NCBI GenBank assembly: GCA_028874795.1
Contig: JAPPHT010000070.1
Span: forward strand, 191,068-228,955
Reading direction: 5' to 3'
DNA: 37,888 nt
From: Chloroflexota bacterium
Lineage (GTDB): Bacteria > Chloroflexota > Dehalococcoidia > Lucifugimonadales > Australimonadaceae
Part shown: piece after piece, positions 4,176-34,408 of the stretch
Layout: each line of letters starts with the position of its first letter
Position numbering within the stretch: position 1 is the stretch's first letter
The notes under the pieces: generated by a model
What the model was told of the DNA's origin: nothing
The model's input: the letters and a program-made list of their open reading frames with translations, nothing else
Database searches by the model: none
Position numbers and translations under genes: made by a program

Positions 4176-4210
4176 GTCCTTCCTGCGGAGGCAGGAACCT
4201 CACAGCCCTG
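4176..4210 (+). repeat. Family A palindromic repeat, copy 1
   Basis: Hairpin TTCCTGC-ggag-GCAGGAA flanked by GTC and by AACCTCACAGCCCT. The right flank matches the copy buried in ileS (AACCTCGCAGCCCTT), so the repeat unit extends beyond the stem. It lies just upstream of the amidase start. Confidence 0.75.
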
Positions 4211-4236
4211 GAATGAAGGGGTGTGAGGCGCCTTAT

Positions 4237-4270
4237 CCCCTCTCCTGAGGGAGAGGGTTAGGGTGAGGGC
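4237..4270 (+). repeat. Family B palindromic repeat, copy 1
   Basis: Palindrome CCCTCTCCTGAGGGAGAGGG followed by TTAGGGTGAGGGC. The same palindrome plus the GGGTGAGGG tail recurs at 5496, 7423 and, inverted, at 25351, 25604, 26439 and 27979. Confidence 0.75.
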
Positions 4271-6181: not shown

Positions 6182-7273
6182 ATGGCAGACAACATCAGGG
6201 TCGGCATCATCGGCGGCAACGTGAACGGCTGGGCCGGGCGCGCCCACATGCCCGCGATGGCGGCGGGCATCCCCGGCGTCGAGCTCGTCGCCGTCTCGAC
6301 AACCAGGCAGGAGTCGGCGGACGAGGCCGCGTCGAGGTTCGGCGCGAAGTACGCCTACGCTGACCACCACGACCTCCTCGCGAACCCGGAGGTGGACGTC
6401 GCCGCCGTGGTTGTCAAGCTGCCCACCCACTACGAGCTGACGAAGGACATCATCGCGGCGGGCAAGCATGTCTACACCGAGTGGCCGCTCGGCACGACCA
6501 CCGCCCAGGCCGAGGAGATGGCCGACCTTGCCGCTGCCGCGGGCGTCCGCACCTGCGTCGGCCTGCAGGCCCGTCATTCGGCCGAGTACCGGGAGATGCG
6601 GCGGCTCGTGGACGGCGGCGCGATCGGCGACGTGCTGAGCGTGAGCCTCACCCAGTTCGGCGGCGGCGGGCTCGCGCGGCCCTCCGGACGCATCTGGATG
6701 CGGGACGAGGCCGCCCACGCCAACACCCTCAGCATCACGTTCGGCCACGCCATAGACGGGCTCATGTCCGTTCTCGGCCCGGCCGGGACCATCGCCTCGG
6801 TTGTCAGCAACCAGGTGAAGGAATGGACCGCCTCCGACACCGGCGAACGGTTCTCCGTGGATGCGCCCGACAACGCGCTGGTGAGCGGTACGCTGGCAGG
6901 CGGCGCGTCGTTCTCCGCGCACGTCGCGTCGGTCGCCGGCGTCGGCACCGGCCAGAGCCTCCAGATATTCGGCTCTCGCGGCACGATGACGCTCTACTCT
7001 TCCAGCTCAACGCACATGAGCTCCGGAGAGGTGCGTGTGGCCCTCGAGGGCGAGACGGAACTCCACGAGGTGGATGTTCCGCAGGATGAGTGGGTCACCG
7101 CCGCGGGGCTGGGAGGGTCGTCCGTGAATATCGCCAAACTCTGGGCGTCCTACGCTGACGCCATCCTCAACGACCGCGAGTTCCATCCCGACTTCAGCGA
7201 CGCTGTCCGGCATCACCGGCTGATCGACGCGGTGCAACGCGCCTCGGACACCGGCCAGGCGCAGGAGGTCTAG
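6182..7273 (+). CDS. Gfo/Idh/MocA-family protein, Gal80-like
   Basis: A 363-residue protein with an N-terminal Rossmann fold (VGIIGGNVNGWAGRAHMPA) and a C-terminal beta-sheet domain of the Gfo/Idh/MocA family, which usually oxidises or reduces sugars and cyclitols with NAD(P). In place of the canonical EKP motif the protein has Glu100-Trp101-Pro102 (YTEWPLGTT). The lysine thought to serve catalysis is therefore missing, as in Gal80-like members. It may still bind NAD(P) but act as a sensor or use another mechanism. The ATG at 6182 is chosen over upstream ATGs because it gives the normal N-terminus and follows GTGAGGAAC. The leader contains the family E element. Confidence 0.85.
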   Translation: MADNIRVGIIGGNVNGWAGRAHMPAMAAGIPGVELVAVSTTRQESADEAASRFGAKYAYADHHDLLANPEVDVAAVVVKLPTHYELTKDIIAAGKHVYTEWPLGTTTAQAEEMADLAAAAGVRTCVGLQARHSAEYREMRRLVDGGAIGDVLSVSLTQFGGGGLARPSGRIWMRDEAAHANTLSITFGHAIDGLMSVLGPAGTIASVVSNQVKEWTASDTGERFSVDAPDNALVSGTLAGGASFSAHVASVAGVGTGQSLQIFGSRGTMTLYSSSSTHMSSGEVRVALEGETELHEVDVPQDEWVTAAGLGGSSVNIAKLWASYADAILNDREFHPDFSDAVRHHRLIDAVQRASDTGQAQEV

Positions 7274-7275
7274 GT

Positions 7276-7361
7276 ATCCGGCCATGAGGCCAGCCACCCG
7301 GCGTGGGGGGGTTGGCATCCGGCGTGGGGCCAGGCATCCGGCATGAGGCTTGGCACCCGGC
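7276..7361 (+). repeat. Short tandem repeat, about four units of 19-21 bp
   Basis: Imperfect units starting ATCCGGC or ACCCGGC, such as ATCCGGCGTGGGGCCAGGC and ATCCGGCATGAGGCTTGGC, follow one another directly after the Gfo/Idh stop codon. The array merges into the next family A copy. Confidence 0.7.
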
Positions 7362-7376
7362 ATTCCCGCCCCACCC

Positions 7377-7401
7377 GTCATTCCCGCGAAAGCGGGAACC
7401 C
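7377..7401 (+). repeat. Family A palindromic repeat, copy 2
   Basis: GTCATTCCCGCGAAAGCGGG followed by AACCC, with a perfect 7-bp stem TTCCCGC/GCGGGAA and a GAAA tetraloop. Confidence 0.75.
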
Positions 7402-7422
7402 AGGGCGGAGGATGAGTGTCTG

Positions 7423-7460
7423 GTTCCCTCTCCCTCAGAGAGAGGGCCAGGGTGAGGGTG
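7423..7460 (+). repeat. Family B repeat, copy 4, abutting the recG start
   Basis: The palindrome CCCTCTCCCTCAGAGAGAGGG is followed by the GGGTGAGGGTGG tail. It ends 4 nt before the TTG start assigned to recG, so the only visible ribosome-site-like bases for recG belong to the repeat. Confidence 0.65.
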
Positions 7461-25350: not shown

Positions 25351-25403
25351 CCCTCACCCGCCGCCCTTTAGGACGGCACCCTCTCCCCAGGAGAGGGATG
25401 AGG
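25351..25403 (-). repeat. Family B repeat, copy 5 (inverted)
   Basis: The CCCTCACCC tail, then a spacer and the palindrome CCCTCTCC-CCA-GGAGAGGG. The unit is in the opposite orientation to the copies at 4237 and 7423. Confidence 0.65.
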
Positions 25404-25451
25404 CCAAATGCCCCACCCCCCATCGCCGCCCCGTGCGCCCTGTCGGGCACG

Positions 25452-25480
25452 CTGGATTCCCGCCTTCGCGGGAATGACGG
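25452..25480 (-). repeat. Family A palindromic repeat, copy 3
   Basis: CTGG, then the hairpin ATTCCCGC-CTTC-GCGGGAAT and GACGG. The perfect 8-bp stem and fixed flanks are shared with the copies at 26563 and 34364. Confidence 0.75.
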
Positions 25481-26393: not shown

Positions 26394-26422
26394 CTGGATG
26401 CCAGCCTTCGCTGGCATGACGG
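26394..26422 (-). repeat. Family A palindromic repeat, copy 4 (compensated variant)
   Basis: CTGG, then ATGCCAGC-CTTC-GCTGGCAT and GACGG. Two stem base pairs differ from copies 3 and 5, each changed on both arms, so the stem stays perfect. Confidence 0.75.
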
Positions 26423-26438
26423 AGCGGGACGCTCCGCC

Positions 26439-26518
26439 AACCCTCACCCACGCGCCAAAGCGCGTTGCCCCGTTCGGCAAGTTCAGGGCAGGCTCTCTCC
26501 CCCAGGAGAGGGGTCAGC
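26439..26518 (-). repeat. Family B repeat, copy 7 (inverted, with long spacer)
   Basis: CCCTCACCC, a spacer of about 45 bp, then CTCTCTCCCCCAGGAGAGGG. Same arrangement as copies 5 and 6 but with a longer spacer. Confidence 0.55.
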
Positions 26519-26562
26519 CTCCTCCCACAACCCAGCCTCCCCCTGCGACCTTGACGGCCGCC

Positions 26563-26590
26563 CTGGATTCCCGCCTTCGCGGGAATGACG
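26563..26590 (-). repeat. Family A palindromic repeat, copy 5, at the 3' end of the second epimerase gene
   Basis: CTGG, then ATTCCCGC-CTTC-GCGGGAAT and GACG. It lies 3 nt from the TAA of the minus-strand gene ending at 26594, where a hairpin could end or stabilise the transcript. Confidence 0.75.
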
Positions 26591-27819: not shown

Positions 27820-30800
27820 TCATCCCGCCCTTGCGACCCCCACCGTGAGCGTGACGCCGTCGATCTCGTGCTCCTCGGTGTGGGCTCCGGGTGGGGGAGC
27901 GGCGGCGTGGAGGGCGTCGCTCAGCGTCTCCTGGCGGATGTAGGTCTGTTGGGCCGCAAGGGCAGGCGGGAGAGAACCGCCCTCACCCCCAGCCCCTCTC
28001 CCAGGGGGAGAGGGGGGCCGGATAGTTCCCCCATTCTCCTCCTCTCTGAAGGGCTGCGAGGTTCCCGCCTTCGCGGGAATGACGGAAGGAGGGGCGGGAA
28101 CGACGGAGGGAGGGGCAGGAACGACGGAAGGAGGGGCGGGAACGACGTAGGTGACGATGCGGTCCTCGATCTCGAAGCCGGCGGCCTTGCGCATGTTCTG
28201 GACGCGGTGGACGAACTCGCGCGCCGTGCCCTCCGCCTCCAGTTCGGGCGTGAGCGTGGTGTCGATCCCGATAAGGAGCGCGCCCTCGGACGCGGCAGCG
28301 ACGCCGGGCTTGTCCTCCACCTCGATCTGAAAGTCGCCGGGCTCGAACGTGAAGCCGCCGAGCTCGATGCTGCCGTATCCGCCGGAGCGGAGCGCGGCGG
28401 CGACCGCTGATGCGTCCGCCTCGGCGATGGCCTGCCGGGCCGCGCCCATGTCCGCGCCGAGCCTGGGGCCGAGCACAGGCAGGTTCGGCTTGAGCGTGAA
28501 GTTTGCGAGGGACTCGGGCTCAGCGACCTCCATGGCCTTGACGTTTAGCTCGTCGAGCACCTGCGATTCGATGAGCGGCAGCAGCTCCTCGTCCCCTGGG
28601 CGGGGGCTGACGAGCACGCGGGCGAGGGGCTGGCGCACCTTGACGCCGCTCTTGCTGCGCGCGTTCCGCCCGAGGCTGGCGATGCGCATGGCGAGGCGCA
28701 CCGCACGGTCGAGGCGTTCGTCGGTGAGCGCCGGGTCAGTGTCGGGGAAGGGTTCGAGATGCACACTGGTGGGAGAGCCGGACGGGGTTCCTGCCTGCCC
28801 AGGAACGACGCGCTCTGCTTCCGAGGCTCCTTCGTTCCTCGGCGCGAGGTTGCGGAACATGGCGTCGGCGACGAAGGGAGTCATCGGCGCGGTGAGCTTC
28901 GTGAGGGTATGGAGGCAGGAGTACAGGGTGACGTATGCCCAGGTCTTGTCGTCGTCGTTCTCGGCCTTCCAGAAGCGGCGGCGGCTACGGCGGACGTACC
29001 AGTTGGAGAGGAGGTTCACGAAGTCCTGGATGCGGCGTCCGGCCCCGGTGGCATTGAGCGCGTCCATGTCGTCCGCGACCCGGGCGACGAGGCCGTTGAG
29101 CTCCGAGACGATCCAGCGGTCGAGCTCGTTCGGCGGCGGGGCGGCAAGTGTCGGCTCGCCCACGCGGCCGTCCTTCCAGTACTCGGCGTGGGCGTCGGGG
29201 TCGAAGCCGTCGATGTTGGCGTAGGTGACGTAGAAGCTGTAGGTGTTCCAGAGCGTGAGCAGGAACTGGCGCAGCGTCTCCTTGACGAGGTCCGGGGAGA
29301 AGCGGCGCGCGTCACCCGCGGGCGCGGCGGTGAAGAGGTACCAGCGGAGCGCGTCGGCGCCGTGCTCGTTCATGACGGCCCAGGGGTCGACAACGTTCCC
29401 CTTCGACTTGGACATCTTCTCGCCCTTGCCGTCCAGGATGAGGCCGAGGACGAGGCAGCTCTCGTAGGAGGGCTTGCCCGTGATGAGGGTCGAGAGCGCG
29501 AGCAGGCTGTAGAACCAGCCGCGCGTCTGGTCGACGGCCTCGGTGATGTAATCGGCCGGGAAGAGCGGGCTGGCGATGAGGTCGTCCACGCCGTTGAGCG
29601 TGACCTCCTCGCCGCCGGAGGCCTTGACGGTGACGGGGTAGTCCCACTGCGCGAACGGCATCGCGCCGGAGTCGTACCAAGCGTCGGCTACCTCCGGCAC
29701 GCGGCGCATCGTCCCTCCGCAGCCTGCCTCGGCGCAGCGCAGCTCGACGCGGTCGACGAACGGGCGGTGGAGGTCGAGGCCGTCCAGCAGCGGCCGGGTC
29801 TCGTCAGTCACACGCTCGGCGAGGTCGGCGGTAGAGCCGGCGACGAGCAGGTGCTGCGGATCGCGGTCGCAGCGCCAGATGGGGATAGGGGTCCCCCAGT
29901 AGCGCTCGCGGGAGACGGACCAGTCGACGTTGTTGCGGAGCCACTCGCCGAACCTGCCTTCCTTGATGTGCTCCGGCACCCACTCGATGCCACGGTTGCC
30001 CGCGAGCATCGCGTCCTTCATAGCGGTCGTGCGGATGTACCAGGAGGTCTTGGCGTAGTAGAGGAGGGGCGTGCCGCAGCGCCAGCAGAAGGGGTAGGTG
30101 TGCTTGTAAGGCGAATCGTCGCGGAAGAGCAGCCCGCGGTCGTCGAGGTCGCGTATGAGTTGCTTGTCGGCGTCCTTCACGAACGTTCCCCCGCCGGGGA
30201 AGTCCTCCGCGAGCACTCCGCGGTTGTCGACGGTGTGGACGGTCTCGATGCCGTGCGCCCTGCCGAGTTCGGCGTCCTCCGCGCCGTAGGCGACCGCGCT
30301 GTGCACGATGCCGGTGCCGTCGGCGGTCGATACGAAGTCGGCGGGGAGCACGCGGTGAGCGTGGCCGCGTCGGGCGAGGAAGTCGCCGTAGGGAGCGTCG
30401 TACTCGATGCCGACGAGGTCCGCGCCGGTGCATCGCGCGAGCTCGCGCCAGCCGTCGCCGAGGACGGTCCGCGCCAGCGCCTCGGCGACGATGGCGCGTT
30501 CGCCGTCGTCGTTCTCCGACAGGACGTAGGACACGTCGGGGCCGACCGCCAGCGCGCAGTTCGCGGTGAGCGTCCAGGGCGTCGTCGTCCACGCGATGAA
30601 GGCGGGACGGGGCGCGGTCCAACGTTCACCGTCGTAGCCGAGAGCGGTGAGCGTGTCGACCGATGCGCCGTAAGACATGGACTGGGACTCGCTCGCGGGG
30701 AAGCGGATGTAGATGCTGGGGTCGGGCGTGTCCTCCTGGTAGCCGAGGGCGACCTCGTGGGAGCTGAGGCTGGTGACGCATCGCGGGCAGTGGGGAGTGA

Positions 30801-31353
30801 CCTTGTAGCCTTCGTAGACGAGGCCCTTGTCCCACAGGCGCCTGAACACCCACCACGCCGACTCGATGTAAGAGTTGTTGTACGTGACGTAAGCGTCGGC
30901 CATGTCGAGCCAGACGCCGGCGCGCTCGGTCATGGCCTCCCACTCGCCGACGTAGCGGAAGACGCTCTCGCGGCAGCGGCGGTTGAACTCCTCGATGCCG
31001 AACTCCTCGATCTCCTGCTTGCTGGAGATGCCGAGCTCCTTCTCGATCTCCAGCTCCACGGGCAGGCCGTGGGTGTCCCACCCACCGCGGCGCAAGGGGC
31101 GGAAGCCGCGCATGGTCTTGTAGCGCAGGACCACGTCCTTGAACGAACGGGAGAGCACGTGGTGGATGCCGGGGCTGCCGTTCGCGGTGGGCGGCCCTTC
31201 ATAGAAGACGAAGAGCGGCGCTTCCGCGCGGGCGCGATCGACCTGGTGGAAGAGGTCAGCCTCGCGCCAAGCCTCGAGGACCGAGGACTCCAGTTGCGGG
31301 AAGTCGACCTTGCTGGAGACGGGTTCGTATCGTTTGTTCGCGTTGCTCGTCAT
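27820..31353 (-). CDS. ileS: Isoleucine-tRNA ligase (eukaryote-like type) with in-frame repeat insertions
   Basis: A 1177-residue class I synthetase that charges tRNA-Ile. The HIGH motif is the GIHH form (residues 62-65 in PPTANGSPGIHHVLSRS) and KMSKS is intact near residue 645 (DGKGEKMSKSKGN). The GIHH form and C-terminal region fit the eukaryote-like IleRS group. Unusually, about 60 residues near 1070-1130 (VPAPPSV repeats, VIPAKAGTSQPF, PPSPPGRGAGGEGG) are translated family A and B repeats plus a 21-bp minisatellite. A further family A copy lies near residue 850 (RVVPGQAGTP). The conserved tail YIRQETLSDALH resumes afterwards. ATG 31353 follows CGGAGAACCC. A T-box leader lies upstream. Confidence 0.96.
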   Translation of the reverse strand: MTSNANKRYEPVSSKVDFPQLESSVLEAWREADLFHQVDRARAEAPLFVFYEGPPTANGSPGIHHVLSRSFKDVVLRYKTMRGFRPLRRGGWDTHGLPVELEIEKELGISSKQEIEEFGIEEFNRRCRESVFRYVGEWEAMTERAGVWLDMADAYVTYNNSYIESAWWVFRRLWDKGLVYEGYKVTPHCPRCVTSLSSHEVALGYQEDTPDPSIYIRFPASESQSMSYGASVDTLTALGYDGERWTAPRPAFIAWTTTPWTLTANCALAVGPDVSYVLSENDDGERAIVAEALARTVLGDGWRELARCTGADLVGIEYDAPYGDFLARRGHAHRVLPADFVSTADGTGIVHSAVAYGAEDAELGRAHGIETVHTVDNRGVLAEDFPGGGTFVKDADKQLIRDLDDRGLLFRDDSPYKHTYPFCWRCGTPLLYYAKTSWYIRTTAMKDAMLAGNRGIEWVPEHIKEGRFGEWLRNNVDWSVSRERYWGTPIPIWRCDRDPQHLLVAGSTADLAERVTDETRPLLDGLDLHRPFVDRVELRCAEAGCGGTMRRVPEVADAWYDSGAMPFAQWDYPVTVKASGGEEVTLNGVDDLIASPLFPADYITEAVDQTRGWFYSLLALSTLITGKPSYESCLVLGLILDGKGEKMSKSKGNVVDPWAVMNEHGADALRWYLFTAAPAGDARRFSPDLVKETLRQFLLTLWNTYSFYVTYANIDGFDPDAHAEYWKDGRVGEPTLAAPPPNELDRWIVSELNGLVARVADDMDALNATGAGRRIQDFVNLLSNWYVRRSRRRFWKAENDDDKTWAYVTLYSCLHTLTKLTAPMTPFVADAMFRNLAPRNEGASEAERVVPGQAGTPSGSPTSVHLEPFPDTDPALTDERLDRAVRLAMRIASLGRNARSKSGVKVRQPLARVLVSPRPGDEELLPLIESQVLDELNVKAMEVAEPESLANFTLKPNLPVLGPRLGADMGAARQAIAEADASAVAAALRSGGYGSIELGGFTFEPGDFQIEVEDKPGVAAASEGALLIGIDTTLTPELEAEGTAREFVHRVQNMRKAAGFEIEDRIVTYVVPAPPSVVPAPPSVVPAPPSVIPAKAGTSQPFREEENGGTIRPPSPPGRGAGGEGGSLPPALAAQQTYIRQETLSDALHAAAPPPGAHTEEHEIDGVTLTVGVARAG
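27960..28150 (-). repeat. Composite repeat insertion inside the ileS reading frame
   Basis: In coding order: three 21-bp units (GTCGTTCCCGCCCCTCCTTCC type, 28146-28084), a family A hairpin with its AACCTCGCAGCCCTT flank (28083-28045) and a family B palindrome with its GGGTGAGGGC tail (28018-27979). All are read in frame, with no stop, and interrupt otherwise conserved IleRS sequence. Confidence 0.8.
28786..28810 (-). repeat. Family A repeat, copy 7, inside ileS
   Basis: The minus strand reads CGTCGTTCCTGGGCAGGCAGG followed by AAC, a hairpin GTTCCTG/CAGGAAC with a 6-nt loop. It is translated as part of ERVVPGQAGTPSGSP, where related enzymes have a short linker before SVHL. Confidence 0.6.
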
Positions 31354-34363: not shown

Positions 34364-34408
34364 CCTGGATTCCCGCCGGTGCGGGAATGACGGAGGATCG
34401 CGAATGAC
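34364..34408 (-). repeat. Family A repeat, copy 8, with duplicated flank
   Basis: CTGG, the hairpin ATTCCCGC-CGGT-GCGGGAAT and GACGGAGG, then a second GCGAATGACGGAGG directly after. It ends 7 bp before the stop codon of the lipoprotein gene at 34415, again at a gene's 3' end. Confidence 0.7.

Follow-up and report, generated by a model that had tools for sequence, protein, structure and literature searches.

In-frame CGTC-type palindromic repeats in the isoleucyl-tRNA synthetase gene of a SAR202 bacterium

Since the discovery of Rickettsia palindromic elements, it has been asked whether new segments of proteins can be built from palindromic repeats. The element RPE-1 is longer than the CGTC-type repeats. 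The Neisseria dRS3 repeats (ATTCCC-N8-GGGAAT) have a core palindrome that we take to be similar to those of the present repeats. In the CGTC repeats described by Di Nocera et al. 2013 (PMC3733652), the CGTC-1 type consisted of a CGTC tag, an 8-bp stem starting with AT, a 4-nt loop, and a CCA-like tail. In the same work, the RPE-4/6 repeats of R. conorii were placed among the CGTC repeats, other bacteria were reported to have in-frame REPs in their tRNA synthetase genes, and no transposase was found for the CGTC REPs; the five phyla listed for these did not include Chloroflexi (PMC3733652).

The present repeats were studied in a sponge-type SAR202 bacterium (Chloroflexota), represented by a MAG of 3.33 Mb (97% complete, 90 contigs) designated G000, together with five congeneric genomes (G001-G005). 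Among named records, SAR202/Dehalococcoidia MAGs were the closest to G000. The whole stretch of DNA analyzed, 37,888 nucleotides in length, is referred to as the window. What is new here is the lineage, the finding that sister species have different repeat families at the same reused loop, and the presence of an additional CGTC arm on a quarter of the family A copies. The locus is a new and unusually clear example of a phenomenon known from elsewhere, in a phylum new to it, and it shows a feature of CGTC repeats that is possibly new. A literature search with the repeat sequence strings returned nothing relevant.

Palindromic repeat families of the genus

Two palindromic families, A and B, were found repeatedly in the window and throughout the genome. 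Neither family was due to chance, since 193 genome copies of family A (up to three mismatches) and 103 copies of family B (exact pattern) were found, compared with none for the reversed control pattern of A and none for the control of B. The consensus of family A, derived from 181 copies, was CGTC-ATTCCCGC-GAAG-GCGGGAAT-CCAG. In these copies, the four tag positions were conserved at 94% (C), 100% (G), 87% (T), and 88% (C). The stem, ATTCCCGC / GCGGGAAT, was 8 bp long with A-T as its first and second pairs, and was conserved at 85-100% per position. All copies with exact arms had a 4-nt loop when 2-6 nt were allowed (GAAG in 40, GAAA in 21, others in the rest), and the tail read C (83%), C (62%), A (61%), followed by G (94%). 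Among the CGTC-tagged REPs, family A belongs to the CGTC-1 type.

The likeness to the CGTC-1 REPs included the tag, the length and sequence type of the stem, the 4-nt loop, the CCA tail, the high copy number, the lack of a dedicated transposase (judged here by a PF01797 search), and occasional in-frame copies, some of them in tRNA synthetase genes. Unlike the described CGTC REPs (PMC3733652), family A was found in a Chloroflexota host, where families B and C and arrays of CGTC arms accompanied it in frame. Like Rickettsia RPE-4, RPE-6, and RPE-1, the palindromes were kept in frame within conserved genes, but the SAR202 host is unrelated to Rickettsia, its genome has a high G+C content, and several repeat families can occur at one site. 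The first-pass annotation had likened the repeats to the Rickettsia palindromic elements, though in a lineage unrelated to Rickettsia, and this was borne out. Family A fits CGTC-1, and RPE-4/6 belong to the same superfamily (PMC3733652). The repeats also resembled the GTAG REPs of the REPIN/RAYT system as short non-autonomous palindromes present in many copies, mainly outside genes; unlike those, family A had no GTAG tag and G000 had no RAYT. The PF01797 profile (Y1_Tnp, RAYT family) gave no match in G000; across 16 genomes, its single match was in G001. RAYT was ruled out as the mover of family A for want of a candidate in G000.

The family A pattern was present in 97 of the 393 genomes of the class (296 negative) and in 54 of 226 genera. 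Within the bacterial family, all six congeners carried it, in 38 to 950 copies each, as did a single further genus; the rest were without it. Family B had 53-103 copies in five congeners and was nearly absent from G005, a single contig of 2512416 bases (L226-L245) with approximately 950 family A copies. The first-pass annotation had placed the same repeats in the gaps at 4176-4270, 7377-7460, and 25351-25480 of the window, and both A and B were located in each (Table 1). A 19-bp tandem array (AGGCATCCGGCATGAGGCC, 4.7 copies, 69% match) at 7272-7363 adjoined the A copy at 7377.

Table 1. Coordinates of ileS and of the repeats in the window
Feature	Position	Strand	Remarks
Window	G000:C84:191068-228955		
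ileS, isoleucyl-tRNA synthetase	27820-31353	minus	1177 aa from ATG at 31353
Insertion site 1, RNEGASEAERVVPGQAGTPSGSPT	28768-28839	minus	after NLAP; contains a degenerate copy of family A (28784-28810, 6 mismatches)
Insertion site 2	27967-28143	minus	approximately 55-59 codons repeat-derived; loop after RIVTYV; edges within about 3 residues either way
Three extra CGTC arms with spacer, 21-bp unit CGTCRTTCCYGCCCCTCCYTC	28084-28147	minus	read VVPAPPS
Family A palindrome CCGTCATTCCCGCGAAGGCGGGAACC (CGTC-tagged REP)	28060-28085	minus	1 mismatch to genome consensus; read VIPAKAGT
Family B palindrome	27976-28017	minus	core 27993-28015; read PPSPPGRGAGGEGG
A 4176-4199 and B 4239-4256	4176-4256		intergenic or gene-end
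A 7377-7400 and B 7427-7445	7377-7445		
B 25380-25396 and A 25455-25478	25380-25478		intergenic; A is the perfect consensus
A variant 26397-26420, B 26494-26511, A 26566-26589	26397-26589		last A is the perfect consensus
Family A, loop variant	34368-34391	plus	3 mismatches

Repeat-derived segments of IleRS

The ileS gene was identified by the equivalog model TIGR00392 (856.9 bits, far above the cut-off) and by the Pfam domains tRNA-synt_1, Anticodon_1, and DUF5915. Its frame was open from 31485 to 27820, the insert included, and the ATG at 31353 was the likely start, as the IleRS of relatives begin at the equivalent Met. The first-pass annotation had proposed that translated repeats fill about 60 residues near 1070-1130 in an open frame, after which the conserved C-terminal end resumes. 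The results agreed with this in each respect: the insert peptide VPAPPSVVPAPPSVVPAPPSVIPAKAGTSQPFREEENGGTIRPPSPPGRGAGGEGGSLP covered residues 1071-1129 counted from the ATG, the frame stayed open through it, and the conserved C-terminal end YIRQETLSDALH picked up again behind it. This insert (site 2) was composed of a palindrome from each of the families A and B and of a 21-bp array, all read in frame. The array, as reported by TRF, had a period of 21 and 3.6 copies with a 90% match (28073-28147), and its unit was equivalent to family A's own CGTC arm plus a 9-nt spacer. The first CGTC of the array overlapped the host codons TAC-GTC. These host codons were found at site 2 in G004 and G005 as well; a CGTC target was not visible in the empty TyrRS site, and a common target of this kind is not put forward as a rule.

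Comparison with relatives showed that the loop differed among sister species. The segment from RIVTY to LAAQQ had 72 residues in G000, 47 in G003, 33 in G002, 32 in G001, 27 in G005, and 17 in G004, and 20-26 residues in approximately 70 other IleRS from Chloroflexota and beyond. At the DNA level, G002 had one arm unit and A, G003 had the same two parts with a degenerate B-like tail in addition, G001 had B only, and G004 was empty; no recognizable repeat was found in the 27-residue segment of G005. Genera without any family A had no insert in IleRS. The alignment with close relatives, proposed earlier as a check, thus revealed different repeats or an empty site at the loop rather than an alignable non-repeat sequence. 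Downstream of site 2, the changes between species were, in most genome pairs, mainly at third codon positions (for example, 0.17/0.04/0.47 between G000 and G001 over 47 codons), and the absence of this bias in one of the 10 genome pairs (47 codons) counted against the explanation preferred below. The division of the inserts into those shared by descent and those gained independently was resolved in part, with weak support near G000 and G004, which also counted against that explanation.

The unit of the 21-bp array was the arm and spacer of family A itself, occurring once in G002 and G003 and three times in G000, which suggests that the array probably grew in place from one to three extra units rather than arriving ready-made. 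Provided that the arm-plus-A of G000, G002, and G003 was inherited in common, the composite of G000 would have been built stepwise. The earlier claim that the two families and a minisatellite had been inserted together is therefore unlikely, as G002 had A only, G001 had B only, G003 had A with a degenerate B, and the array was made of A's arm. An AlphaFold2 model of the C-terminal 315 residues, built with 54 relatives, had a mean pLDDT of 89. In this model, the strand that leads into the insert reached approximately 95, as did the helices and strands that follow, whereas the interior of the insert was below 50, and the insert is predicted to be a disordered loop in the C-terminal domain between confident elements, a β-strand and then a helix.

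A second, more degenerate A-type insert (site 1), which the first-pass annotation did not contain, was found in the same gene. At this position, G002, G003, and G005 had only about 5 residues and no repeat, other genera also had about 5, and G004 had a B+A+B composite. Alignment to the T. thermophilus IleRS (1ile) mapped site 1 onto the short link before SVHL.

In-frame repeats in other genes and the probable origin of the inserts

The census covered stretches around listed repeats rather than the complete genome. A codon-usage screen was applied to 470 kb of such sequence, and the domain identities of the repeat-bearing genes were taken from Pfam. Repeat peptides in other proteins of the genome, which the first-pass annotation had proposed to search for, were found, with in-frame A, B, or C in the TyrRS, the Lhr helicase, and an OppD-like ABC ATPase. 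The TyrRS contained A in G000 and B in G004, and was empty in G001-G003. Lhr had three insertion sites, the first of which was occupied by A in G000 and G004 and by B in G001, and was empty in G002, G003, and G005. The OppD-like gene carried a long C+B+A insert with arrays in G000 and a short A insert in G003, and none in G002, G004, and G005. Together with ileS, these three cases combined a conserved gene, an open frame, and homologues lacking the repeat, as do in-frame palindromic elements of the Rickettsia type. The third family, C, is of the CATTTCGAGCGAAGCGGAGTCGAGAAATCTC type and gave the in-frame peptides DFSTPPGSARNDKGD and SLSFRAESRDLSG, at L145:3410-4777 (OppD-like) and at L222 (Lhr of G001). 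The Lhr of G001 (L221, L222) was split into separate open frames in the assembly used, and the other congeners with the whole gene had it as one frame. Further candidate inserts of G000 were located in the linker of a 2-oxoacid dehydrogenase E2, a CoA-transferase fusion, and two terminase-like paralogues. The paralogues (L166:147-2153 and L177:2358-3863), for which a Pfam search gave no match, had a B insert at a common position (APLPEGEGSQTHL), and L166 also had an A insert. Low-score B-like matches at L137, L164, L183, and L186 were probably chance occurrences in ordinary genes and were left out of the insertions.

Within genes, the repeats of G000 were 7- to 10-fold depleted. Only 7 of 140 clusters under strict and 15 of 179 under relaxed conditions were intragenic, compared with 54% of 1189 random positions in the same sequences; the classifier was rough, but one rule was applied to clusters and random positions and the contrast was large. 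None of the 85 clusters in the 400 kb sampled from G005 was intragenic, compared with 55% of random positions. This depletion implied that insertions into genes are mostly removed and that the survivors keep the frame. Outside genes, family A was often found after stop codons with its CGTC end facing the gene, 64 of 160 copies lying within 90 nt compared with 25 on the other side, at a median distance of approximately 24 nt (L110-L188).

Non-autonomous palindromes very probably inserted at permissive loops and then grew in place in codon-length units, with decay to follow. According to this explanation, the CGTC REP family A and palindrome B, sometimes with C, would in this SAR202 genus insert mostly between genes, often by stop codons, and only occasionally within them. 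An intragenic copy that kept the frame in a solvent-exposed loop would survive, and for family A this would be possible because five of its six reading frames are open, four of these five being used in genes (VIPAKAG, DSRFRGND, VPAFAGMT, and SFPRKREP). The insert of ileS would have been lengthened in whole-codon units as the CGTC arm of A, together with its spacer, was copied in tandem, and would have been gained, replaced, and lost among the sister species. Counting against this explanation, no RAYT-family transposase that could serve as the mover was found in G000 with the PF01797 profile; the same lack was reported for the CGTC REPs (PMC3733652). The insert peptide may be retained in the mature IleRS, where it would be neutral.

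Recruitment for a function, by which the Pro/Gly/Ala-rich loop would alter tRNA binding, stability, or IleRS interactions and be kept by selection, is improbable. A related insert common to G000, G002, and G003 and the repeated striking of the same loops by different repeats speak for it, but the sequence and length varied by species, G004 had no insert, the insert was predicted to be disordered, and the strong depletion in genes is that expected of tolerated damage. It is less likely still that the repeat is a locally acting RNA or DNA element (a translation-slowing hairpin, or an element of mRNA stability or replication) whose coding is incidental. That 64 of 160 family A copies closely follow a stop codon, with the CGTC end foremost, favors such an element and makes a 3'-end role outside genes plausible; however, the RNA fold of the ileS insert was not unusual against shuffles (z -1.6), which left a special RNA structure unsupported, and G004 lacked the palindrome while G001 had B only. 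The first-pass annotation had held that the repeat must be selected or tolerated both as DNA/RNA and as peptide; tolerance was upheld, whereas selection as peptide or RNA was not, given the repeat-free G004 and the ordinary RNA fold. Mis-joining of repeat-rich reads within ileS during assembly or binning, for which a MAG in 90 contigs and a repeat of approximately 190 copies could be cited, is the least credible reading and was rejected because in each of the five other assemblies the loop either held a variant that keeps the frame or was clean, to which the position of the window inside a 229-kb contig and the similar inserts in three other conserved genes can be added.

With insertion at permissive loops as the preferred explanation, the in-frame inserts and the differing or empty loops of related species indicate that, as in Rickettsia to a large extent, DNA of a selfish type is decorating housekeeping proteins. 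One genus yielded before-and-after pairs of loops in essential enzymes, namely two tRNA synthetases, a helicase, and an ABC ATPase, in which the empty, single, composite, and expanded states were found across sister species. These clean pairs make the insertion, growth, and decay of a protein segment directly testable.

The extra CGTC arm of family A

An extra CGTC arm (CGTCATTCCCGC) was found 15-26 nt upstream of the copy's own CGTC in 40 of 169 family A copies, about a quarter, whereas dinucleotide shuffles gave an expectation of 4.0 (sd 1.8, maximum 9). The spacing peaked at 18-19 in G000 and at 22 in G005. Units of 19 bp were the commonest between genes, and units of 18 or 21 were found in genes. 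The spacers were pyrimidine-rich and locus-specific, and were alike inside one array. We tentatively suggest that CGTC REPs might have an unrecognized extended architecture, in which the hairpin is preceded by a second CGTCATTCCCGC arm at a distance of approximately 18-21 nt (22 in G005), with a short pyrimidine-rich spacer between them. Such an arm could be part of the mobilization mechanism or a product of hairpin-stalled slippage, and in genes it would generate codon-length protein loops. The transposase-less CGTC repeats thereby gain a spacing signature that needs explanation. The extra arm sometimes occurred in arrays of several units, as in L155, L156, L170, L172, and at 28073-28147 of the window.
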